Source of the DNA: Fusobacterium mortiferum ATCC 9817
Lineage (GTDB): Bacteria; Fusobacteriota; Fusobacteriia; Fusobacteriales; Fusobacteriaceae
NCBI RefSeq assembly: GCF_000158195.2
Contig: NZ_GL987988.1
Coordinates: forward strand, 70,165-134,164
Direction: 5' to 3'
Length of the DNA: 64,000 nucleotides
The notes under the pieces are model-generated. The model had not been told where the DNA came from. It saw only the letters and a list, made by a program, of their open reading frames with translations, and searched no databases. Every line of letters starts with the position of its first letter. Positions within the stretch are counted from its first letter, which is position 1. The translations under genes and the position numbers were made by a program. Of this stretch, positions 405 to 62,732 are shown piece by piece.

Positions 405-1745
405 ATGAAAAAAAATACAGTTGTAATTGTAGGAGCAGGAAGTACTCATACTCCTGGAATAATCCAAAGTTTATTACAAAAAAAAGAAGAGTTTCCATTA
501 AAAAAATTGATTCTTTTTGATATCGATGAAGAGAGAATGAATATGGTAAAATCGATTATGACTCAGTTTATAGAAGAAGCATATGAAAATTTAGAAGTAA
601 TAAGTACCTCTGATTATAAAGAAGCTTTTACTGATGTTGATTTTGTCTTTGCTCAAATAAGACAAGGTGGTCTAAAGATGAGAAGCTGTGATGAAAAAAT
701 TCCATTAAAATATGGTGTTGTAGGACAAGAAACTTGTGGGCCAGGAGGATCAATTTCTTATGGAATTAGATCAATTCCAGCTGTTATAGAAATTATAAGA
801 CAAGCAAAAAAATATTCACCTAATTGTTGGATTTTAAATTATTCAAATCCAGCTGCTGTAGTAGCAGAAGCAACAAGAAGAGAATTTGGAAATGAAAGAA
901 TTTTAAATATCTGCGATATGCCAGTTGCAATTTTATTATCATATAGTAAAATGCTAGGGCTAAAAGATTGGACAGAATTAGACCCTGAATATTTTGGACT
1001 TAATCACTTTGGTTGGTTTACAGCATTATATGATAAAACAGGAAAGGATAGATTACCAGAATTAAGAAAATTAATTTTAGAAAATGGAATGACAGCATGT
1101 AGTGATAAACATCATAAAGACAAGGATTGGCAAAAAACTTGGAAACAATATGCTGAAATAATAAAGGATTATCCTGAATATTTACCAAATAGTTATTTAC
1201 AATATTATTTATATTCATCTGATGTTGTAAAAAAAATGGACCCTAGTTATACAAGAGCTGATATGGTGATCAATGGTAGAGAGAAAGAGATGATAGAAGA
1301 ATATCAAAAATATTTAGCAAATCCATCTGAATATAAAAGCCCAATACAAGAATTTACTGTTTTTGGAGATTTTATAGTAGATGCAGCAGCTTCTATTGCT
1401 TATAACAAAGGGTATAGATATTTAGTTATTGTAGAAAATAATGGAGCAATACCTAATTTACCATCAGATGTAATGGTAGAAGTTCCTGCTTACTTAAGAA
1501 GCTGGGGACCTGAAGCAATTTCAAGAAAGCCTATTTCAACTTTTTATAAAGGTTTAATAGAAAATCAAGCTGCTTCAGAAAAATTAGCTGTAGATGCATA
1601 TTTTGAGAATTCTTATGATAAAGCTCTTCAAGCAATAGCAATAAATAAAACAATTCCATCAACAAATATTGCTAAAGCTATTTTAGATGACTTTATTGAA
1701 GCTAATGGAGAATATTGGCCAAGATTAGAAAAAAAATCTTATTAA
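405..1745 (+). CDS. 6-phospho-alpha-glucosidase, GH4 family (MalH/GlvA-like)
   Basis: Cytoplasmic hydrolase of phosphorylated alpha-glucosides such as maltose 6-phosphate; the family needs NAD and a divalent metal. The 446-aa length is normal for GH4. Visible motifs are the N-terminal nucleotide-binding VGAGSTHTPG (9-18), NYSNPA (145-150), CDMP (170-173) and GLNHFGW (198-204, with the metal-binding His). CDMP is the signature that separates the alpha-specific from the beta-specific branch of GH4. AGGAGG precedes the ATG. It is the first gene of an operon with the PTS permease 13 bp downstream. It resembles Fusobacterium mortiferum MalH but is not obviously identical, so it may be a paralogue with another disaccharide preference. 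Confidence 0.93.
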   Translation: MKKNTVVIVGAGSTHTPGIIQSLLQKKEEFPLKKLILFDIDEERMNMVKSIMTQFIEEAYENLEVISTSDYKEAFTDVDFVFAQIRQGGLKMRSCDEKIPLKYGVVGQETCGPGGSISYGIRSIPAVIEIIRQAKKYSPNCWILNYSNPAAVVAEATRREFGNERILNICDMPVAILLSYSKMLGLKDWTELDPEYFGLNHFGWFTALYDKTGKDRLPELRKLILENGMTACSDKHHKDKDWQKTWKQYAEIIKDYPEYLPNSYLQYYLYSSDVVKKMDPSYTRADMVINGREKEMIEEYQKYLANPSEYKSPIQEFTVFGDFIVDAAASIAYNKGYRYLVIVENNGAIPNLPSDVMVEVPAYLRSWGPEAISRKPISTFYKGLIENQAASEKLAVDAYFENSYDKALQAIAINKTIPSTNIAKAILDDFIEANGEYWPRLEKKSY

Positions 1746-1758
1746 TTTAGGGGGAAAA

Positions 1759-3333
1759 ATGGATAAAAATAGATTATTTAGTGAATTTCAAAAATTGGGA
1801 AAAGTATTAATGGCTCCTGTTTTAATATTACCAATAGCAGGAATTTTAGTTGGAATTGGAAGTGGTTTTACAAATCCAAAAATATTAGAATTATTTCCTT
1901 TTTTAAAAAATTTAACTATATTTTTTAATATTTTAAAAGATGCAGGAAATGTGGTAAATAATAATATTCCAGTAATATTTGCAATTTGTATAGCTTATGG
2001 TTTTGTAAAAAGTGAAAAGGCAACAGCAGCTCTTAGTGGTTTTTTAGGATATATGACAATGAATACAATATTAGGAAATTTCCTTATTTATACAGGAAAT
2101 TTAGATCCTAAAAATTTATTAATAGGTCAAAAACAAATATTAGGAGTATTAACTTTAGATACAGGTGTTTTTGGTGGAATTTTAGTTGGATTCTTAATAG
2201 CACATATCCATAATAAATTCTATAAAATACAGTTACCAGCAATATTATCTATCTTTAATGGAACTAGATCAATACCAGCACTTTCAATTATTTTTTCAAG
2301 TATTTTAGGAATTATTTTAGCTTTTATTTTTCCACCTATTCAACATTTGTTAATTAAATCTTCTGATATAATTAATTCAATAGGTGCTAGTGGAGCTTTT
2401 ATATATGGATTATCTGAAAGATTACTTCTTCCATTTGGATTACACCATTTTATTTATCTTCCATTCTTTTTTACTCAATTAGGAGGATATTTAAATATAG
2501 ATGGAGTTATGGTAGAAGGTGCAGTAAATATATATAATGCAATGTTAAGTTCACCAACAGCTAAATTTGATATAAATATTACAAGATTCGTAATGAATGG
2601 AAAAGTTTTATTTGCTATGTTTGGTTTACCTGGAGCTGCATTAGCTATTTATAAAACATCATTACCAAAAAATAAAAAGAAAGTAGCTGCTTTAATGACA
2701 GCAGCAGTGTTACCATGTGCTTTAATGGGAATTACAGAACCATTAGAATTTTCATTCTTATTTATAGCTCCAATGTTATTTATAATTCACTCTTTTTATG
2801 CTGGAATAGCATATATTTTAACTTATATTTTAGAAATAAATATTCCAGGGCCATCTAGTTTTGGAGGACCTTTACTTTCATTTATATTTAATGGTATACT
2901 AAACTCAGATAAAGGATCTCATTGGTATTATCTTTTAATAGTAGGACCTATATATTTTATATTATATTATTTTACTTTTAAAATATATATAGAAAAAAGA
3001 AATTTAAAAACTCCAGGAAGAGAAGAAAATTTTGAAACTGGTAATGAAGAAAATTTTGAAGAGGTTAGTGTAAATAAAAATATTTCAACCAAATTACTAA
3101 AAGAAATAATAGAAGCAGTTGGCGGAGAAGAGAATATCAAAAAGGTAGATGCTTGTTTTACAAGACTTAGATTAACTTTAGAAGATAATTCAAAAGTTAA
3201 TGACTTGAAAATTTTTGAAAAATCTTTAGGTGCTAGTGGAGCTGTTTTAGTTGAAAATGGAATTCAAATTATTTATGGAAATAGGGCAAATTTATTAAAG
3301 ATAGAGATGAGAGAATTTTTAAAACATGAATAA
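1759..3333 (+). CDS. PTS alpha-glucoside transporter, EIICB
   Basis: Membrane permease that imports and phosphorylates an alpha-glucoside, supplying the GH4 enzyme encoded just upstream. Residues 1 to about 410 are a hydrophobic EIIC domain of the glucose/maltose superfamily. A charged linker follows, then a C-terminal EIIB domain whose phosphorylated cysteine is C466 in the motif ACFTRLR. There is no EIIA domain and no EIIA gene nearby, so a glucose-type EIIA encoded elsewhere must donate phosphate. It belongs to the GlvC/MalB group. The ATG follows GGGGGAAAA after a 13-bp gap, which suggests co-transcription. Confidence 0.93.
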   Translation: MDKNRLFSEFQKLGKVLMAPVLILPIAGILVGIGSGFTNPKILELFPFLKNLTIFFNILKDAGNVVNNNIPVIFAICIAYGFVKSEKATAALSGFLGYMTMNTILGNFLIYTGNLDPKNLLIGQKQILGVLTLDTGVFGGILVGFLIAHIHNKFYKIQLPAILSIFNGTRSIPALSIIFSSILGIILAFIFPPIQHLLIKSSDIINSIGASGAFIYGLSERLLLPFGLHHFIYLPFFFTQLGGYLNIDGVMVEGAVNIYNAMLSSPTAKFDINITRFVMNGKVLFAMFGLPGAALAIYKTSLPKNKKKVAALMTAAVLPCALMGITEPLEFSFLFIAPMLFIIHSFYAGIAYILTYILEINIPGPSSFGGPLLSFIFNGILNSDKGSHWYYLLIVGPIYFILYYFTFKIYIEKRNLKTPGREENFETGNEENFEEVSVNKNISTKLLKEIIEAVGGEENIKKVDACFTRLRLTLEDNSKVNDLKIFEKSLGASGAVLVENGIQIIYGNRANLLKIEMREFLKHE

Positions 3334-3346
3334 CTAGGAGATTTAT

Positions 3347-4129
3347 ATGTATTCTTTTTTTTCAAATTTAAAAAAATGTCGAGATAATAATGAACTTTTT
3401 CCTAAAATAGAAGTAATTATAGCTAATTTTATTTTGGATAATCATAAAATTATTCCAGACCTTTCTATAAAAGAACTAGCTCAAAGATGTAATACATCAA
3501 CATCTACTATTTCTAGATTTTGTAAAAGAATTAATGGTAGTGATTTTAAAACATTAAAAGAAGAATGTAGAATATACAACAATTTTTTAGAGGAAAAAGA
3601 AATTGTAAAACCTACAAACCAAAGAACATTAAATGAATCTTATATAACTGACTTATTTAAAGCAATGAAGGAAACTAGCCAAGCCAATGATATAGAAAAA
3701 ATTAAAAACGCAATATTTTGGATTAAAGAAGCTAAAAAGATTTTTTTCTTTGGAACATCTTTTTCAAATATTCTTGCTCAAAATATAAGTGAAAAATTTA
3801 TGAGATTAGGAAAAAATACAATATGTCCTTTGACAATTTCTTCGCAAAATAATATAATTACTCAAATAAAACCAGATGATTTAGTTGTTATTATAAGCTT
3901 TTCAAATAATAATTTTCAAATTAATAGGATTAAAAGAATATTAAGAAAAAAACAAATAAAAACAATATATATATCTTCAAAACAAGATTCTAATTATAAT
4001 AATGAAATTACTTTACTAGTTTCTAGTTTAAATTATAAAGAATTTGAATCTCCAATAATTCAAGAATTTTCAATTAATTATATTATAAATTATCTTTATT
4101 TATTTTATATAGAAAGCAGCTATTTTTAA
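3347..4129 (+). CDS. RpiR/MurR-family transcriptional regulator
   Basis: A 260-aa protein with an N-terminal RpiR-type helix-turn-helix (about 1-80, core STSTISRFCKRING) and a C-terminal SIS sugar-phosphate-binding domain (about 110-260, FFFGTSFSNILAQN). It is the last gene of the GH4-EIICB operon, 13 bp after the permease, with TAGGAGAT before its ATG. By analogy with GlvR it probably senses a phosphorylated glucoside and controls the operon, perhaps through the palindrome at 314-338. No terminator is visible before the IS256 element, which starts 50 bp downstream. Confidence 0.88.
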   Translation: MYSFFSNLKKCRDNNELFPKIEVIIANFILDNHKIIPDLSIKELAQRCNTSTSTISRFCKRINGSDFKTLKEECRIYNNFLEEKEIVKPTNQRTLNESYITDLFKAMKETSQANDIEKIKNAIFWIKEAKKIFFFGTSFSNILAQNISEKFMRLGKNTICPLTISSQNNIITQIKPDDLVVIISFSNNNFQINRIKRILRKKQIKTIYISSKQDSNYNNEITLLVSSLNYKEFESPIIQEFSINYIINYLYLFYIESSYF

Positions 4130-45482: not shown

Positions 45483-46151
45483 TTAATACATATTTTCAGA
45501 GTTTTCCCCTTTGATGATTTTTACTATTCTACTTGTACCTAGTCTATCAGCACCTAATTCCATAAACTTAGCAGCATCATCTAATGAAGAAATTCCACCA
45601 GCAGCTTTTATTTTTACATCTTTTCCTACATATTTTTTCATTAAAGCTATGTCATTAAATGTAGCTCCACCAGTTGAAAATCCAGTAGAAGTTTTAATAT
45701 ATTCTGCTCCTGATTTAGTAACTATTTCACACATTTTTATTTTCTCTTCTTCAGTTAAAAGACAAGTTTCAATAATCACTTTTAATATTTTACCATTACA
45801 AGCTTTATGAATATCTTTAATCTCTTCTAAGATTGCATCAAAATTTTCATTTTTTACATCAGTAATATTGATAACCATGTCTATTTCATCAGCACCATTT
45901 TTAATAGCATCTTCAGTTTCAAAAATTTTTACAGCAGTTGTAGAATAACCATTAGGGAAACCAATTACTGTACAAATAGGTAGCTTATCTCCTACATATT
46001 CTTTAGCTTTTTTTACATAAGAAGCTGGAATACAAGCAGAAGCAACATTATATTTTATTCCATCATCAAGAATTTGTTTTATATCTTCCCAAGTAGCATT
46101 TTGAGTTAAAAGTGTGTGGTCAACAGCACTTAATATTTTATTTCTATCCAT
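45483..46151 (-). CDS. deoC: Deoxyribose-phosphate aldolase
   Basis: Splits deoxyribose 5-phosphate to acetaldehyde and glyceraldehyde 3-phosphate. About 222 aa; the Schiff-base Lys is in [13 protein letters not shown] and the second Lys in VKIKAAGGI. Two ATGs lie close together (46157 and 46151); AGAGG is two bases from the first and eight from the second, so 46151 (MDRNKIL) is preferred. Last gene of the nucleoside operon. Confidence 0.96.
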
Positions 46152-46165
46152 ATACATATCCTCTC

Positions 46166-47356
46166 TTAATTTATTTTATCTAAAATAGAGTATCCAATAG
46201 TATCTTGAGGCATTGTTAGTCCAAAGTTATCAACTATTGTTGCTCCTATTACAGCAAAGGTATCAAATTCTCCTAAATTTCCATTTTCTTTAAAAGATGG
46301 AGAATAAGCTATAAAAGGCACTTGTTCTCTAGTGTGATCAGTTCCAGTATAAGTAGGATCATTTCCATGATCAGCTGTCAATATTAATAGATCATCTTCT
46401 CTCAACTTAGAAAGAAGTACTCCTAAATTTTTATCAAATTTTTCTATCTCCTCAGCATAACCTTGCGGATTTCTTCTGTGTCCCCATAAAGCATCAAAAT
46501 CTACTAAATTTACAAAACAAAGACCTATAAAATCTTTATTGGCTATTTCAATAGTTTGTTCCATTCCATGAACAGAACTTTTTGATTTATGAGACTCAGT
46601 AACTCCCTCTCCATCAAATATATCATTAATTTTTCCAACAGAAATTACATCTAGTCCAGCATTTTTTAAAACATTAAGAGCAGTATCTCCATAAGGTTTT
46701 AAAGCATAATCATGTCTATTACTTGTTCTTTTGAATTCTCCTTTTTTTTCACCTATATATGGTCTAGCTATTATTCTCCCGACTTTCCATTCATCTTTCA
46801 TAGTAAGTTCTCTAGCTATTTCACAATATTTATAAAGATTATCTAATCCCATATATTTTTCATGTCCACAGATTTGTAAAACTGAGTCAGCACTGGTATA
46901 AACTATCATGTCTCCTGTAGCTATCTCATGTTCTCCATATTCATCAAGTATTTCTGTACCACTAGCAGATTTATTTCCAACTACTTTACGTCCACATTTA
47001 GCTTCAAGTTCATCTATTAATTCTTTTGGAAAACCTGTATCAGTAAAAGTTTGGAAAGGTTTTTGTATATTTAGTCCCATCATCTCCCAATGTCCAGTCA
47101 TAGTATCTTTTCCAACACTAGTTTCATTAAGAGCAGCAAAATATCCTAATGGTTTTTCTACTGTATTTACATTTTTAATAGGATGTAGATTAGCTAATCC
47201 TAATTTTTGCAGATTTGGAATATTAAGAGAAGAAACAGATTTAGCAATATTACCAAGTGTATCTACTCCTATATCTCCAAATTTTTCAGAATCTTTCATA
47301 GCTCCAATTCCTAATGAATCTAATACTATTGTAAAAATTCTTTTGTATTTTTTCAT
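46166..47356 (-). CDS. deoB: Phosphopentomutase
   Basis: Interconverts (deoxy)ribose 1- and 5-phosphates. A 396-aa alkaline-phosphatase-fold metalloenzyme beginning [18 protein letters not shown], with the catalytic Thr in KDTMTGHWE and metal-site motif [19 protein letters not shown] (split 19-mer region near 330). The frame continues to TTG at 47377, but AAAGGAG sits before the ATG at 47356. It is 14 bp after deoD and 14 bp before deoC. Confidence 0.96.
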
Positions 47357-47369
47357 ATTAATCTCCTTT

Positions 47370-48080
47370 TTAGTCAATAAAAGTTTCTAGAGCTATTTCC
47401 ATCATCTTAGTGAAAGCAGTTTGTCTTTCTTCAGGAGTTGTAACTTTATGAGAAGTGAAAGAATCAGATATAGTTAAGAGACAAGCTGCTTTTTTACCTA
47501 AAACTTTAGCATTATGGAATAGAGCAAAGCTCTCCATCTCTACACATGTACAACCATGTTTTGCAAAATGCTCTTTATAGCTATCTACATTTGGCTCTGT
47601 ATAGAATACATCACTTGAATGAATTTTTTCAACATGTAAAGGAATACCTAATTTTTTAGCAGTTGCTATAATTTTTTCATTTAATTCTTTATCTGGGTAT
47701 GTAGTATCACTTTCATATCCATTTTGAGTATGAGCAAAAGTTGATTGACTCCAAGCTGATTCAGCTAAGACAACATCGTATACATCTAACTTATCAACAT
47801 ATGCTCCAGCTGAACCAACACGTACAATATTTTCTACTCCATATACTTTAAATAACTCATAAGAGTATATTCCTATTGATGGCATTCCCATTCCAGAAGC
47901 CATAACAGTAATTTCCTTTCCTTTATATGTTCCAGTATAGGCAAGCATATTTCTAACAGAGTTAACTTGTTTTATATTTTTTAAAAATGTTTCAGCTATA
48001 AATTTTGCTCTTAAAGGATCTCCAGGCATTAAAACATTTTTTGCAATTTCTCCGATTTTAGCATTATTATGTGGTGTCAT
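47370..48080 (-). CDS. deoD: Purine nucleoside phosphorylase DeoD
   Basis: Phosphorolysis of purine nucleosides. A 236-aa hexameric-type PNP (NP-I family) starting [22 protein letters not shown], with EMESFALF (ribose-binding Glu) and the catalytic Asp in TISDSF. TAGGAGGAT precedes the ATG. Middle gene of the operon; its product ribose 1-phosphate feeds deoB. Confidence 0.97.
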
Positions 48081-48097
48081 ATTAATATATCCTCCTA

Positions 48098-48514
48098 TTA
48101 TTTTAAATCATCACTTGTAAAAGAAAAAGGTAAAAGTTCAACAATATTTGTGATCATAGCTTGAGAATTTGTATTAGCAATAATTATAGGGGTATCCTTT
48201 TTTAAAAGCTCAACCATAACTTGTCTACATGCTCCGCAAGGACTTCCTAAAGTGTTCCCTCTAGTTACTAGAGCCATAGATTCAATGTCATCTTGTCTAT
48301 ACCCTAAAGAATATACATGAAATAGAGCACTTCTTTCAGCACAATTAGTAAGCCCATAAGAAGCGTTTTCTATATTAGCTCCAACATGATATTTTCCATC
48401 TTTAGTTTTTACACAAGCTCCAACATGGTATTTTGAATAAGGTGCATAAGCTTTTTCCATTACCTCAAAAGCTCTATCTAGAATATCTTTATATTGTTCA
48501 AATATTTTTTGCAT
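48098..48514 (-). CDS. cdd: Cytidine deaminase
   Basis: Converts cytidine to uridine. A 138-aa zinc enzyme; the ligands and proton shuttle are in TNCAERSALF (Cys-x-Glu) and SPCGACRQV. GGAGGT precedes the ATG. It feeds uridine to the phosphorylase encoded at 49806-50588. Confidence 0.97.
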   Translation of the reverse strand: MQKIFEQYKDILDRAFEVMEKAYAPYSKYHVGACVKTKDGKYHVGANIENASYGLTNCAERSALFHVYSLGYRQDDIESMALVTRGNTLGSPCGACRQVMVELLKKDTPIIIANTNSQAMITNIVELLPFSFTSDDLK

Positions 48515-48536
48515 AAATACCTCCTTCTAGTAATAA

Positions 48537-48559
48537 TTGAGGTTGAAAATCAACCTCAA
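48537..48559 (-). other. Intercistronic hairpin between nupC and cdd
   Basis: TTGAGGTTG and CAACCTCAA form a perfect 9-bp stem. No T-run follows in the direction of transcription, so it may be a processing or stabilising hairpin that changes expression along the operon rather than a terminator. Confidence 0.55.
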
Positions 48560-48576
48560 TATATTATAACATAAAT

Positions 48577-49779
48577 TTATATAATTGTGATAAATCCAAC
48601 AATCATAGCACTTAAAATACTTACAGCAAAACCACCTATCATAGCTTTGAAAGCAAGTCTAGCAAGTACAGGTCTTTTGTCAGGACAAAGTATAGATATT
48701 CCAGAAATACAAATTCCCATACTAGAAACATTAGCAAACCCAGCCATAGCAATACTTAACATAAGTCCTGTTCTATAATCTAAAGAAGCAAGGTGTTGAC
48801 CTAAATTTTGAAAAGCAACAAATTCATTTAAAACTAATTTAAATCCAAGTAATTCTCCAGCATACAAGATATTTTCACCTTCTAATCCCATAAAGAAACC
48901 AAATGGAGAGAATATATATGCGAAAATTTTCTCAAGGCTTAATCCAGCAACTCCTAATATACCATTTACAAGAGAAACAATAGAGATAAATGCTACAAGA
49001 GAAGCAGCAATGGCAATAACAGCTTGGATACCGTTTACAGCTCCTTCTGTAACAGCTGATATAATATTTTCATGATGTTCTTTTCTATCCATACTTACAT
49101 TTTCAATTACTTTAGCATGCTCTGTTTCAGGTAAAAGAATTTTTGAGATAGCAATACTTCCAAAAGGAACAAGAGCTGAAGCTGTAAGTAGATACTCCAT
49201 AGGAATACCTAAAGCAGTATATCCTCCAATTATTGTAGCAGACATACTTCCCATTCCAGAAACTAAAACTACCATTATTTCACTTTGAGTCATATTTCCT
49301 AAGTATTTACTAACAAGAATAGGACTTTCAGTTTGTCCTAAAAACATATTAGCAACAGCAACAAAGCTTTCAACTTGAGTAGTTCCTAAGATTTTCCCTA
49401 CTACTTTACCAATAACTTTAACAATAGCTCCTAATATTCCAAGATAGAAAAGAGCAGCTACTAGAGCTGATAGGAATATTATGTTTCCAAGAGCACCTAT
49501 TATAAATATGAAACCAGTAGCTTGACTAGGGTCTGCTAAACTACCAAATACAAATGATAATCCATTAAATCCATAACTAAGAATTTTTGTAACTACATCA
49601 GAAAGCTTAGATACTACAATTCTTCCAAAAGGAAACTTTACTAGAAGAAAAGCTAGAATAAATTGAACAATTAAAGCTTTTACAACAATAGAAATTTTTA
49701 CTTCCTTTTTGTGTGAAGATATAAGATACAATAGACCTAATAGTAAAACTATACCAATTAAAATTATTATCCCTTTCAT
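48577..49779 (-). CDS. nupC: Concentrative nucleoside transporter NupC
   Basis: A 400-aa CNT-family symporter with multiple membrane segments. It has the family signatures GQTESPILV and the substrate-site region NEFVAFQNLG, plus FANVSSMGI. Two adjacent ATGs occur; GGAGGA is better spaced for the second (49779). It imports nucleosides for the enzymes encoded around it. Confidence 0.95.
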   Translation of the reverse strand: MKGIIILIGIVLLLGLLYLISSHKKEVKISIVVKALIVQFILAFLLVKFPFGRIVVSKLSDVVTKILSYGFNGLSFVFGSLADPSQATGFIFIIGALGNIIFLSALVAALFYLGILGAIVKVIGKVVGKILGTTQVESFVAVANMFLGQTESPILVSKYLGNMTQSEIMVVLVSGMGSMSATIIGGYTALGIPMEYLLTASALVPFGSIAISKILLPETEHAKVIENVSMDRKEHHENIISAVTEGAVNGIQAVIAIAASLVAFISIVSLVNGILGVAGLSLEKIFAYIFSPFGFFMGLEGENILYAGELLGFKLVLNEFVAFQNLGQHLASLDYRTGLMLSIAMAGFANVSSMGICISGISILCPDKRPVLARLAFKAMIGGFAVSILSAMIVGFITII

Positions 49780-49805
49780 CATTCCTCCGATTTATTTAAT
49801 TAAAA

Positions 49806-50588
49806 TTATAAAAGACCAGATTCTTTATCTTGTTTAATTAAGTTACGAATAGCTTGAACTGTAACTTCAATAGCAGCCTCTGTATCATGAACAACGGGGT
49901 TTTCTAGTCCTAATTTTTCTCTTTCTTGGTTAGCAACAACTAAAAAAGATGAACCTACACGAACTCTTAAATAATCTCCAACAACAAATAAAGCAGCAGA
50001 TTCCATTTCAGAAGCTTTACATCCTAGACGCACCCAAGCATTCCATTTGTTCACTAGTTCATAATCTACGGGTTTTGTTTCAGGCTCATGTTGTCCATAA
50101 AAAGCATCCTTACATTGAACAATTCCAACATGATATTTTTTATTTAAATCTTTAGCAGCTTGAACAAGTGCATTAGTAATTTCGAGATTAGCAACAGCAG
50201 GAAATTCTATAGGTGCATATTCTTTACTAGTTCCTTCCATACGAATGGCTCCAGTAGCAATGACTAAATCGCCTCCCATTATATCTGTTTGCATACCACC
50301 GCAAGTTCCAACTCTTAAGAAAGTATCAGCTCCAACTCTTACTAACTCTTCAAGAGCTATAGAAGCAGATGGACCTCCAATTCCAGTAGAAGTAACACTT
50401 ACTTTAACACCGTCTAAATAACCAGTATATGTAACATATTCTCTACTATCTGCAATAAGTTTAGCATCATCAAAATGTCTTGCTATTTTCTCACAACGTT
50501 TAGGATCCCCAGGTAAAATTACATATTTACCTACATCTCCCTTTCTTAATCCAATATGATATTGTAATCCTTCTTCAGCATATTTCAT
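49806..50588 (-). CDS. udp: Uridine phosphorylase
   Basis: Phosphorolysis of uridine and related pyrimidine nucleosides. A 260-aa NP-I enzyme with [19 protein letters not shown], the EMESAALF motif and [12 protein letters not shown]. The frame starts at 50594 with TTG, but AGGAGG is placed for the ATG at 50588 ([11 protein letters not shown]). First gene of the nucleoside operon, with a strong promoter upstream. Confidence 0.93.
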
Positions 50589-50647
50589 AAACAAAACCTC
50601 CTAAACAAATTCTATGATGTCTATCAAGTTGTATATTTTATAAATAA

Positions 50648-56575: not shown

Positions 56576-57205
56576 TTATATTTTAGATAATAACTTTTCA
56601 AAAGAGTTGATTACTTCGGCAAAAAATATTCCTTTTTCAATTTCAAAAGAAAAGGTTGAAAGTTTTGCAATAGAAGAGTTATTCTTACCTACAAAACTTA
56701 TTATAGGAATATTATTGGAATTAGCTTCTTTTATCATATCTAGTAATGAATCTGTTTCTCCAGATTCAGAAACTACAATAAGAACAGTATCATTTGTCAG
56801 ATTTTTATTTAAAAGTTGGAGATGGGTATTGGCTATTGAACGTCTACCTATAAGAGTTATTCTCTCATTCATATATGAGGTAATATTATTAGCAATTCCA
56901 ACAGATAAAAACATAATCAAGGAATCAGGATTGGAAGTTAAAATTTTTATAGGAAGAGTTAGGTTATCATCTATATCAACTTCAGTTTTAGAATTTTTTA
57001 TATAAAAAATTAAATCTGTAAAACTATTGAAACCAATTTTTTTTATACAGTTATAAATTACAGATGTAGAAGTATAATTGATTTTAGCTACCTCTCGAAT
57101 AGAAATTTTTTCTTGCTTTAAAATTTTTTCTTGGATAGAGGTTAAGATATCTTTTTCTAAACTGTTAAGTCTATGTTTTTTAACTATATAATCTATATCT
57201 AACAA
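56576..57205 (-). CDS. RpiR/MurR-family regulator
   Basis: A 209-aa regulator: N-terminal HTH (about 15-70, ISIREVAKINYTSTSVIYNCI) and a shortened SIS domain (about 95-205; LIGRRSIANTHLQLL, VVSESGETDSLLDMIKEA). It starts with TTG at 57205 behind GGTGA. It is divergent from the RarA-C/EIIC pair across 54 bp that must contain both promoters, so it probably regulates them in response to a sugar phosphate. A rightward frame of 154 codons on the other strand is only its shadow. Confidence 0.88.
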   Translation of the reverse strand: MLDIDYIVKKHRLNSLEKDILTSIQEKILKQEKISIREVAKINYTSTSVIYNCIKKIGFNSFTDLIFYIKNSKTEVDIDDNLTLPIKILTSNPDSLIMFLSVGIANNITSYMNERITLIGRRSIANTHLQLLNKNLTNDTVLIVVSESGETDSLLDMIKEANSNNIPIISFVGKNNSSIAKLSTFSFEIEKGIFFAEVINSFEKLLSKI

Positions 57206-57259
57206 AGTACATCACCAATTATATTATACAATAAAAATTATAAAAAAAGGAGATATAAA

Positions 57260-57874
57260 ATGGAAAAAAAATTTATTGTTGACCCTTGGGCAAGAACAAC
57301 AACAAGAAATGGATTAGCTGGAGATGAGGTAATATCAGCTTTACAAAAATCAATCAGAAGAGGAAATGTAGAAGCAGCTTGTGAATTTGCTTATGAGATG
57401 TATATCACTTCTCCTCAAATGGAAGAAAAACTTTGGAGAAGACTTACAGCTATCTCTGTAGAAGATATAGGAATGGGAGACCCTATGGCTGCTGTACTTA
57501 TCAATAATTTAAGACAGATGAGAAAAGAGTATGCTTATGCTGATGGAGATAGACCAATATTTTTTATCCATGCTATAAGATACTTATGTCAATGTGAAAA
57601 AGATAGGTCAAGTGATTTATTAAAAAATATAGTAATAAAAAGTTTTGCAATGGGATATGTTCCAGAAATTCCTGATTATGCATTGGATAAACATACAGTA
57701 AGAGGAGCAGAGATGGGAAGAGATTCATTCCATTTCTTAAATGAAGCTAGTAAAGTTACTCCTCAAAAGAAAGTAGACAATGATTATAAAGAGAGATATA
57801 ACAAGATATTAGAAAAATATAATCCAAATGATGTAGTTCCATCAGCTTTTAAATTTAATCCATGGCAAGAGTAA
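57260..57874 (+). CDS. Stand-alone RarA/MgsA C-terminal-domain protein
   Basis: A 204-aa soluble protein that matches the C-terminal part of MgsA/RarA replication-recombination ATPases: SALQKSIRRGN (26-36), SVEDIGMGDP (66-75), then DKHTVRGAEMGRDSFHF (143-159). The AAA+ ATPase half is completely absent, and no AAA gene is nearby. AAGGAGAT precedes the ATG, so it is a complete gene and not a fragment. It is followed 11 bp later by a PTS EIIC gene and faces an RpiR regulator. A role in sugar uptake or metabolism, not DNA repair, is suggested by context but unproven. Confidence 0.82.
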   Translation: MEKKFIVDPWARTTTRNGLAGDEVISALQKSIRRGNVEAACEFAYEMYITSPQMEEKLWRRLTAISVEDIGMGDPMAAVLINNLRQMRKEYAYADGDRPIFFIHAIRYLCQCEKDRSSDLLKNIVIKSFAMGYVPEIPDYALDKHTVRGAEMGRDSFHFLNEASKVTPQKKVDNDYKERYNKILEKYNPNDVVPSAFKFNPWQE

Positions 57875-57885
57875 AAGGGGGAGAG

Positions 57886-59175
57886 ATGGAAAGTAAATTT
57901 TTAGAAAAATTAGAAAAAGTATTATTGCCAATAGGTAGTAAATTAGGAAATCAAAAACATCTTCAAGCTATCTCTGTAGGAATGATGATGACACTTGCAC
58001 TAATAGTTGTAGGTTCATTATTCTTAATTGTAGCTAATCCACCTATAAATCTAGAATTAGTAGATCCAAATACAAGTAATATATTTTTACAATTTATGAT
58101 AGGTTGGAAAAAATTTGCTATGGCAAATTATGATATAATTACAAAACCATTTAATTTTACTATGGGAGTAGTAGGGCTAATGACAGCTTTTACTATTGCC
58201 TATTCATTAGCTAACGAGTATAAGTTAAATAATCTTACATCTGGACTTATCTCAATGGCAACTTTTTTAATGGTAGCAGCTCCAATAGAAGAGGGAAAAA
58301 TAGTTATGCAATATTTAGGAGCAGATGGACTTTTTATTGCTATTATCATCTCTCTTATAAGTGTTGAGATTTCAATGTTAGTAGAAAGACTTGGATGGAA
58401 ATTTAAAAGTGAACATATACCACCAGCAGTGTTATCATTTATGAATGCCTTAATTCCGTTACTTTTAAATATCCTTATAATCTATGGTTTAAGTGTAATT
58501 ATTTTTGTAAAAACAGGAAAAACTATTCCAGAACTTATAATGGCACTACTAACTCCAGCTTTAAATATTGGAAATAATATTTGGGGATATTTAGCAATAC
58601 TTATTTTTGGAAATATCCTTTGGCTATTTGGAATAAATGGAACATCAGTAATATTCCCAATAGTATTTGCTATAGGAATAGCTAACACAGGTATTAATGC
58701 TGAGCTTGTAAGACAGGGAAAAGAACCAGAAATGTTAATGAATTTACAAATGTTTAGAGTAGCTATATTAGGGGGAGCTGGGAATACTTTAGGATTGATT
58801 CTTCTTATGTTGAGAAGTAAGTCAGAACAATTAAAAACTTTAGGAAAACTAGCTTTTGTTCCTGGAATTTGTGGAATAAATGAACCAGTTATATTTGGAA
58901 CTCCAATAATATTTAATCCAATATTGGGGATACCATTTTTAATAACTCCTATTGTTACTGTTTCAATGGCCTATATAGCACAAAAGATAGGATTAATTTC
59001 AATGGGATATATTGTTGACCCATCTTTTGCACCATTTTTTATACAGGGATACCTATCATCATTGGATTTTAGAAATCTAATTTTTTATTTCTTATTAGTA
59101 GTAATAAGTTTAATAATATATTTTCCATTTTTTAAAGTGTATGAGAAAAATTTGATAGCTCAAGAGCAAGAATAA
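57886..59175 (+). CDS. PTS EIIC, lactose/cellobiose family, orphan
   Basis: A 429-aa membrane protein with about 10 hydrophobic segments; LFGINGTS and CGINEPVIFGTPIIFNPILG (split) are the characteristic EIIC substrate-site motifs of the CelB/LacE group. No EIIA or EIIB domain is fused and none is encoded nearby. The frame extends to 57862 inside the upstream gene, but GGGGGAGAG precedes the ATG at 57886. Substrate unknown. It is followed by the palindromic element. Confidence 0.92.
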   Translation: MESKFLEKLEKVLLPIGSKLGNQKHLQAISVGMMMTLALIVVGSLFLIVANPPINLELVDPNTSNIFLQFMIGWKKFAMANYDIITKPFNFTMGVVGLMTAFTIAYSLANEYKLNNLTSGLISMATFLMVAAPIEEGKIVMQYLGADGLFIAIIISLISVEISMLVERLGWKFKSEHIPPAVLSFMNALIPLLLNILIIYGLSVIIFVKTGKTIPELIMALLTPALNIGNNIWGYLAILIFGNILWLFGINGTSVIFPIVFAIGIANTGINAELVRQGKEPEMLMNLQMFRVAILGGAGNTLGLILLMLRSKSEQLKTLGKLAFVPGICGINEPVIFGTPIIFNPILGIPFLITPIVTVSMAYIAQKIGLISMGYIVDPSFAPFFIQGYLSSLDFRNLIFYFLLVVISLIIYFPFFKVYEKNLIAQEQE

Positions 59176-59454: not shown

Positions 59455-59757
59455 TTATTTTTTTAAAGCGTCAGCAATAGCTTCTTTAAATCCTTCAGAA
59501 GTATAAGTTGCTCCAGCTACACTGTCAACTTCTACAGATTGTTTAGCAATAATTTCAGCTGTAAGTTTTTCAATAGCTGGTTCAGCTATTCTTTTAGTTT
59601 CAGCCATTTTAATAACTTTAATAGCTGTAATTTTATCTCCTTCAGTTTCAACTGAAACAGTGATATCATCTTTATATCCTAATCCTGTTCCCTCTTTAGT
59701 AGCTGCCATAGTAGTAATAGAAAGGATAGCAACTAATCCTAATAATAATTTTTTCAT
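59455..59757 (-). CDS. Exported FMN-binding domain protein
   Basis: A 100-aa protein: signal peptide (KKLLLGLVAILSITTMAA, cleavage near 19) followed by one FMN-binding domain (PF04205 type). The covalent flavin-attachment region is DSVAGATYTS with the Thr acceptor. GLGYKDDITVSVETEGDKI is the usual domain start. The frame begins with TTG at 59769 but GGAGG places the start at the ATG at 59757. It is encoded downstream of the TSCPD-type exported protein (32-bp gap), so the pair may work together at the cell surface or periplasm. Confidence 0.9.
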   Translation of the reverse strand: MKKLLLGLVAILSITTMAATKEGTGLGYKDDITVSVETEGDKITAIKVIKMAETKRIAEPAIEKLTAEIIAKQSVEVDSVAGATYTSEGFKEAIADALKK

Positions 59758-59789
59758 AATTTCCTCCAAACTTTAATAATATTTATATC

Positions 59790-60242
59790 TTATGAGAAAG
59801 AAGCTTGGCAAAGTCCACATCCACTACAAACATGTCCAGCAAAAGCTACTTTTTGTTTAGCTGCTTTTTGAGCCTTTCTAATCTCTACCATAGGACCTTC
59901 TTCCTCTTCAGTAACATGTTTTTTTAACATTTCAACAAGGTTATCCATGCAAGAAGTATATCCTGCAAGAGGAGCATCAGAACAATAGTTATCATCTAAT
60001 AATTCAATAACTTTAGTAACCTCCATTCCAGGTAATAGTTTTCCAATAGCAGCAAGGTTACCAGGACAACCTTTTACAGCGGAAAAAGATTCTATTTTTC
60101 CATCTTTAACAGAAACTGTCATCTCAGTTGAGCAAACTCCATATGTTTTTTCAGAGAAAGTAACATCTTTATTGACAACTTTTGATGCAAGAGTATTTTG
60201 AGCTAATAAAACTCCAGCAAGGATAACAACAGCTTTTTTTAT
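59790..60242 (-). CDS. Exported TSCPD-domain protein with non-canonical AUA start
   Basis: The obvious ATG at 60122 is internal: the open frame upstream encodes KKAVVILAGVLLAQNTLA (a signal peptide) and then VTFSEKTYGVCSTE, the normal N-terminus of a TSCPD/TIGR03905 domain. From the preceding stop to 60122 there is no ATG, GTG or TTG in frame. The codon in the start position (60242) is ATA, nine bases after AGGAG. The protein would be 150 aa, with domain cysteines C37, C59, C87 and C98 and an extra C-terminal CSGCGLC (C139, C142, C145). Either ATA is used, or the start has mutated. Confidence 0.7.
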   Translation of the reverse strand: MKKAVVILAGVLLAQNTLASKVVNKDVTFSEKTYGVCSTEMTVSVKDGKIESFSAVKGCPGNLAAIGKLLPGMEVTKVIELLDDNYCSDAPLAGYTSCMDNLVEMLKKHVTEEEEGPMVEIRKAQKAAKQKVAFAGHVCSGCGLCQASFS

Positions 60243-61820: not shown

Positions 61821-62732
61821 ATGAAAAAAGGAATAGTAATAGCTGGACCCACTGGAGTAGGAAAAACAGCACTTTCTATAAAATTAGCTAAGTTATTAGA
61901 TGCTGATATAATATCTGCTGACTCAGCTCAAGTATATAGAGGAATGGATATAGGAACAGCTAAGATTACATTTGAGGAAATGGAAGGAGTTCCTCATTAT
62001 ATGTTAGATATATTAGAGCCTATAAAAAAATATAGTGTTGGAGATTTCCAAAAAGATGTAGATAGAATACTGAAAGAAGAAGAGAAAAAAGATAGATTTG
62101 TTATTCTAACTGGAGGGACAGGGCTTTATATTAATTCTATCACTGAAGGGTTATCTGACTTACCAGCTTCAGATACAAAGATGAGAGAAGAATTTATGCA
62201 AAAAAGTTCTGAAGAACTCTATGAAGAGTTGAAAAAAGTAGACCCAGAAGGAGCAGAGGAGATACACCCAAATAATAAAAAAAGAGTAGAGAGAGCTTTA
62301 GAAGTTTACAAGCTTACAGGAGAAAAATTTTCTATTCTTTCTAAAAAAAATATAAAAAATAATAGTTATGATTTCTTAAAAATTGCTCTGGAGAGAGGGA
62401 GAGAAAATCTCTATGAGAGAATAAATATGAGAGTAGATATTATGATAGAACAAGGGTTAGAAGAGGAAGTAAGAGAGCTCTATAATAAATATGGAGAGAT
62501 TTTGAGAAAGATAAATATAATAGGATACTCAGAATTTATAGATTATTTTAAAGGAGAGATAACTTATGAAGAGGCAGTAGATAAGATAAAACAAAACTCT
62601 AGAAGATATGCCAAAAGACAGTTTACTTGGTTTAAAAATGACCACACATATATCTGGTATAACCTTGATGAATTATCTGAAAATGAGATAATAGAGGATG
62701 TAGTGAAAAAATTAAATATAGAAATTGAGTAA
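61821..62732 (+). CDS. miaA: tRNA dimethylallyltransferase
   Basis: Adds isopentenyl to A37 of UNN-reading tRNAs. A 303-aa P-loop protein: GPTGVGKTAL (9-18), DSAQVYRGMDIGTAK, and the C-terminal YAKRQFTWFKND. AAGGAGG precedes the ATG. Normal length. Confidence 0.97.
   Translation: MKKGIVIAGPTGVGKTALSIKLAKLLDADIISADSAQVYRGMDIGTAKITFEEMEGVPHYMLDILEPIKKYSVGDFQKDVDRILKEEEKKDRFVILTGGTGLYINSITEGLSDLPASDTKMREEFMQKSSEELYEELKKVDPEGAEEIHPNNKKRVERALEVYKLTGEKFSILSKKNIKNNSYDFLKIALERGRENLYERINMRVDIMIEQGLEEEVRELYNKYGEILRKINIIGYSEFIDYFKGEITYEEAVDKIKQNSRRYAKRQFTWFKNDHTYIWYNLDELSENEIIEDVVKKLNIEIE

Follow-up and report, generated by a model that had tools for sequence, protein, structure and literature searches.

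Why should a domain that is otherwise known only from the end of a replication ATPase be encoded beside a sugar permease? The question is raised by a short gene of Fusobacterium mortiferum ATCC 9817 that lies in a sugar-uptake cassette. We examined this gene and its surroundings in a window of 64,000 nucleotides, the whole stretch of DNA analysed here, and followed its relatives through bacterial and phage genomes. The name RarC is used here for the stand-alone MgsA_C (RarA C-terminal domain) protein.

A complete gene for an MgsA_C domain alone

The rarC gene (Table 1) is complete, and its ATG start follows an AAAGGAG ribosome-binding site. The sole Pfam match of the product is MgsA_C, whose score of 34.8 bits compares with a cut-off of 27, and its clear PDB matches are all C-terminal fragments of RarA/MgsA (2r9g at 1.6e-10). 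The preliminary description had proposed a gene for the C-terminal domain of RarA/MgsA proteins alone, and both the profile search and the structure prediction that it called for bear this out. No AAA+ half split off from the gene was found nearby, since the sole GPTGVGKT-type Walker A motif in the window, at 61845, falls in a miaA-type gene. A normal full-length RarA is encoded on a different contig of the same genome (L002, contig C8, a 414-aa frame). An AF2 model of RarC (pLDDT 88.7) has its best PDB match in 2r9g_P (Z 11.7, rmsd 2.4 over 99 residues) and also matches 3pvs_A (Z 11.3, rmsd 1.9 over 93 residues). RarC is thus predicted to take the helical, collar-type fold of the RarA C-terminal domain. 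Among the fold matches of the model no known enzyme was found.

The downstream EIIC matches TIGR00410 over its full length, above the cut-off of 236, and aligns with ChbC (3qnq; phmmer 1.4e-53). Although the list of open reading frames starts it at 57862, the ATG preceded by a ribosome-binding site is at 57886; with this start, the gap of 11 bp after rarC that had been described holds. The upstream regulator was said to face rarC. An RpiR/SIS gene does adjoin rarC, but the two genes are divergent, back to back. The SIS match of this regulator exceeds its cut-off, whereas the HTH_6 match (PF01418, 23 bits) remains below the 28.3 required.

Other genes of the window may be recorded here. Downstream of EIIC, a gene for a secreted protein with an FMN-binding domain (59455-60122, minus strand) adjoins a gene for a TSCPD-domain protein whose end may be ferredoxin-like. 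The rarC cassette is also, possibly by coincidence, about 6.7 kb away from a complete nucleoside-catabolism operon (45483-50594, minus strand), which encodes a uridine phosphorylase-like protein, a NupC-type transporter, cytidine deaminase, DeoD, DeoB and DeoC. A further segment (405-4129, plus strand) carries a GH4 gene with a CDMP motif, a glucose-type EIICB and an RpiR gene and resembles an alpha-glucoside PTS locus; its GH4 is 48% identical to that of a C. difficile-type RarC operon.

Table 1. Features of the rarC-EIIC cassette (positions in the window)
Feature	Position	Strand	Details
RpiR/SIS-type regulator	56576..57205	-	209 aa; PF01380 SIS 37.9 bits
Divergent promoter region common to rpiR and rarC	57206..57259	.	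54 bp; AAAGGAG before rarC
rarC, stand-alone MgsA_C protein	57260..57874	+	204 aa; PF12002 34.8 bits
RarC signature codons D143-K-H-T...G149...R154...H158-F159	57686..57736	+	alignment of stand-alone clade
EIIC, lactose/cellobiose PTS family	57886..59175	+	429 aa; TIGR00410 285.7 bits, PF02378 145.9 bits
Asn codon at ChbC His250 position (FGINGTS)	58636..58638	+	alignment to 3qnq
Glu codon at ChbC Glu334 position (GINEPVIFG)	58882..58884	+	alignment to 3qnq

RarC separates from RarA

A tree of 88 domains, from which the badly trimmed Chloroflexi RarA rows (L070-L074) were excluded, splits RarA from all stand-alone MgsA_C proteins with an SH-aLRT value of 100. Bacterial RarC proteins form one clade (SH-aLRT 99) among phage proteins, backbone support being moderate. 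Residue patterns follow the same division. D143, H145, T146, G149 and R154 do not vary among the stand-alone sequences, 42 of them bacterial and 30 from phages, while T146, G149, R154, H158 and F159 occur in 0-19% of 16 RarA sequences. A wider set (T15, R34, E46, W59, R116, D119, T146, G149, R154 and H158) is present in bacterial and phage stand-alone proteins and nearly absent from RarA; K30, R33, R61, E68, D69 and K114 are common to both groups. Altogether, some 20 residues, many of them charged, are nearly invariant in the bacterial and phage stand-alone proteins, including T15, Q29, K30, R33, R34, E46, R61, E68, D69, K114, R116, D119, D139, D143, H145, T146 and R154. The signature of the stand-alone clade (T15, E46, R116, D119, D143-x-H145-T146, G149, R154) is complete in the window protein. 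The DKHT and GR residues had been noted as conserved and as suggesting a retained function; conserved they are, but they are not retained from RarA, being features of the stand-alone clade, phages included. RarC, with a clade and invariant residues of its own, is a distinct family and no leftover of RarA.

RarC is linked to one EIIC subfamily

With the window RarC as query against 84,980 species genomes, 72 loci were obtained. In 60-odd of these a stand-alone RarC, 70-97% identical, lies beside an EIIC, and the pair ranges over Fusobacteriota, Clostridia, Bacilli, Erysipelotrichia and Coriobacteriia. When RarC genes were dereplicated at 92%, lactose/cellobiose (lac/cel) PTS genes shared the operon in 55 of 72 cases; the neighbourhood is strongly conserved in other genomes. 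The idea, put forward at the outset, of a role outside replication rescue fits. Gene order varies (RpiR|RarC-EIIC; EIIA-EIIB-EIIC-RarC under LicR; RarC-EIIB-EIIC-EIIA-GH4; LicR-EIIB-EIIA-RarC-DeoD; EIIA-EIIB-EIIC-GH4-RarC). A divergent RpiR gene is found in 28 of 34 comparable loci. The EIIC had been called an orphan, and indeed neither EIIA nor EIIB is encoded anywhere in the window at E<=0.01; the term does not extend to the whole of the window's own clade (EIIC-N), in which both occur within 5 kb in 7 of 34 loci and the remaining 27 lack the two nearby. Median identity in EIIC-N operons is 75% for RarC versus 56% for EIIC. The distribution of RarC is patchy: it is carried by 10 of 98 Fusobacteriota genomes and, within the Faecalibacillus order, by 37 of 196.

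The EIIC proteins of the RarC-linked subfamily share a substitution. All 115 ORFs have Asn at the position of ChbC His250, whereas 26 other EIICs of the set have His, among them EIICs from RarC operons with GH4; the equivalent of Glu334 is retained in every EIIC of the set. In ChbC, His250 and Glu334 are said to line the C6 hydroxyl of the sugar. A reverse search of 296 genomes with the EIIC alone as query found 17 Asn-type genes, 16 of them with RarC adjacent. In the exception, an IS605-type transposase ORF adjoins the EIIC and no trace of RarC is present. The His-type EIIC that the search also met (L204) has no adjacent RarC. The pairing of RarC with this subfamily thus looks obligate, or nearly so.

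Several loci depart from the usual arrangement. In a distant Fusobacteriota genome a RarC-like copy is broken by in-frame stops (L108, G097:C62:8504-8988). On plasmid 3 of E. faecium DO (L075, 7995-13297) an IS110 transposase gene splits rarC and eiiC, and an IS256 transposase gene comes next. In L147 (7561-8782) and L148 (6856-8077) two RarC genes stand in tandem, their products sharing about 60% and 68% identity with the window protein, in operons of the LicR-GH4-EIIB-EIIA type that continue with DeoD and DeoB. The E. faecium BepA permease was considered as a studied case of the same locus and set aside, as bepA is described as a fruA-type EIIC in the portions of the BepA literature available, where no mention of a RarA-like partner was found. 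Anti-phage defence was also dropped as an assignment, there being no PADLOC match. A search of the literature for MgsA_C, PF12002 or RarA together with PTS, most subscription journals lying outside its range, found nothing relevant.

Divergent RarC members adjoin nucleoside genes

Whereas RarC is linked to lac/cel PTS operons generally, its divergent members are linked to nucleoside catabolism and transport. A divergent rarC lies beside a BMP-type ABC transporter and a purine nucleoside phosphorylase in L099, beside a BMP transporter and an ADP-ribosylglycohydrolase in L159, and beside an ADP-ribosylglycohydrolase in L097. Elsewhere the neighbours are a ribokinase-deaminase-nucleoside hydrolase operon (L068), a nucleotide pyrophosphatase/phosphodiesterase (L163) or a guanine deaminase (L171), and in four loci (L147, L149, L151 and L166) RarC occurs with DeoD/DeoB inside PTS operons. 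GH4 with CDMP, DeoD, IunH, RbsK, guanine deaminase, BMP transporter and ADP-ribosylglycohydrolase genes adjoin RarC in separate lineages. The CDMP motif, which marks alpha-specific phosphoglucosidases, is present in seven of the eight GH4 enzymes of RarC operons. Nucleoside-type genes, chosen as queries after the loci had been seen, were detected in 23 of 275 bins within 3 kb of RarC versus 5 of 201 bins at 3-6 kb (Fisher p 0.009). Only 2 of 41 EIIC-N operons, the window's own clade, carry a nucleoside gene, so that the link to nucleosides depends on the remaining RarC branches.

Phage relatives of RarC

Viral contigs contributed 76 ORFs of 185-262 aa that are stand-alone MgsA_C proteins, 34% identical to RarC in a profile alignment and matching phrog_16866 and phrog_33349. 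The AF2 model of one of them (pLDDT 89.8) has the fold of the RarA tail (3ctd_B, Z 16.8, rmsd 1.1 over 105 residues). This large family (L213-L289) is unannotated, its genes often lying between those for a TAGT glycosyltransferase and terminase, and phrog_33349 is labelled ATPase yet lacks an ATPase domain. A stand-alone MgsA_C gene on plasmid pCC829_1 of Bradyrhizobium barranii (L076, 9989-10543) groups with the phage branch; its region also holds integrase, DNA polymerase III beta and a TIR-domain gene.

A TAGT glycosyltransferase exceeds the Pfam cut-off in 29 of 49 dereplicated phage MgsA_C contigs, often just upstream of the MgsA_C gene. In the reverse direction, 28 of 40 TAGT loci had an MgsA_C gene on the same strand, a count biased by the use of query TAGTs from MgsA_C loci. 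The TAGT scan used six closer sequences as query, an alignment of 12 being too diverse; a terminase control scan gave four loci only and was left out of the comparison. C-terminal Q..[LMI]F sequences, like sliding-clamp-binding peptides, occur in 19 of the 49 phage proteins, where shuffling gives a mean of 0.5, and in none of 74 bacterial RarC proteins. Matches to Tet_JBP (TET dioxygenase) numbered 0 in 49 phage contigs, the control being equally silent. Among 5388 RefSeq phages, 111 have any of three DNA glycosyltransferase types, and many phages have TAGT without alpha- or beta-glucosyltransferase, their modification being unknown (PMC13216743).

Discussion

The best-supported reading of these data, which we put forward tentatively, is that RarC acts as a cytosolic enzyme or ligand-binding protein for the sugar- or nucleoside-type compound handled by the linked transporter, and not in replication rescue. 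RarC would have arisen from a RarA C-terminal domain resembling a clamp-loader collar, shed the link to the ATPase and gained its own invariant polar residues. In the window, the RpiR protein would sense a sugar phosphate and open the rarC-eiiC operon; EIIC would import a glycoside, using EIIA and EIIB encoded nearby or elsewhere, and RarC would act on the incoming sugar- or nucleoside-type compound or bind it. It may fill the same role in other lineages, where its neighbours are ABC transporters for nucleosides, phosphoglycosidases and phosphorylases or hydrolases of nucleosides. The invariant residues could instead serve oligomerisation or partner binding.

The main rival makes RarC a partner of the permease without enzymatic activity, an oligomeric adaptor that would bind EIIC or EIIB and replace or adjust the phosphorylation step in an EIIC devoid of the His. 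The C-terminal domain of RarA is an established oligomerisation module, RarC and a single EIIC subfamily accompany each other in nearly every case, at a distance of 11 bp in the window, and most EIIC-N loci lack nearby EIIA and EIIB. Yet some RarC genes accompany His-type EIICs or ABC transporters, or have no transporter beside them, and the conservation of RarC far exceeds that of EIIC, as would not be expected if it merely followed the surface of a partner; on balance we consider an adaptor of this kind rather unlikely. Much less probable is that RarC regulates full-length RarA, or acts as its dominant partner, through mixed oligomers linking sugar status to fork rescue. While the domain is common to RarA, rarC directly follows rarA in L161 and the phage relatives have a clamp-like motif, this adjacency occurs once in 72 operons, the main partners of RarC are transport and catabolic genes, a long branch divides RarC from RarA and its bacterial members are devoid of the clamp motif. 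(A second apparent case of rarA linkage, L035, turned out to be dnaX.) Hitchhiking of a functionless domain fragment is hardly credible: patchy occurrence and the occasional broken copy (G097) would suit it, but it is already contradicted by the conservation pattern of RarC, with high identity maintained across phyla, about 20 invariant residues held in common with phages, and repeated re-association in different gene orders.

A further reading, the most novel one, would bring bacteria and phages together. On the strength of gene neighbourhoods it is possible, albeit improbable, that RarC and the phage proteins form one enzyme family, derived from a clamp-loader-collar domain and acting on sugar-decorated bases. 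The phage members would work with TAGT in DNA hypermodification, tethered to the sliding clamp; the untethered bacterial ones would process glycosylated nucleosides that a dedicated PTS permease brings in, beside a 6-phospho-alpha-glycosidase and nucleoside phosphorylases. If the nucleoside link is true, it would point to a PTS for nucleoside-type glycosides and would supply a part that is still missing from the glycosylation of phage DNA bases.

Whatever its activity, a domain known as a tail emerges as an independent, highly conserved family in several bacterial phyla, common in phages and apparently overlooked, as records label its members hypothetical protein or ATPase. Its bacterial members go with an EIIC subfamily that lacks a residue thought central to sugar phosphorylation, and the family may help to show what the conserved tail of RarA does.

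Comparison with known systems

RarC resembles the C-terminal domain of RarA/MgsA/WRNIP1 (PF12002; 2r9g, 3pvs) in fold and profile, and the two share S26, K30, R33, A40, R61, E68, D69, G71, K114 and P138; RarC differs in having no AAA+ half, in its separate clade and in its own invariants. It agrees in clade and signature with phrog_16866 (of unknown function) and phrog_33349, and the profile-profile comparison gives a probability of 100% (3.5e-48). However, genes for TAGT glycosyltransferases, ParB-like nucleases and terminase lie close to those of the phage proteins, which often carry the Q..[LMI]F motif at their end, and neither holds for bacterial RarC. As to the permease, the RarC-linked subfamily is like other lac/cel EIICs (TIGR00410; ChbC 3qnq) in its full-length match and catalytic-site Glu, and unlike ChbC in having Asn for His250 and, usually, no EIIA or EIIB alongside. 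Finally, many RarC operons share LicR, EIIA, EIIB, EIIC and GH4 with the PTS and phosphoglycosidase operons controlled by RpiR or LicR; to these they add RarC and, in several cases, a purine nucleoside phosphorylase and a phosphopentomutase.
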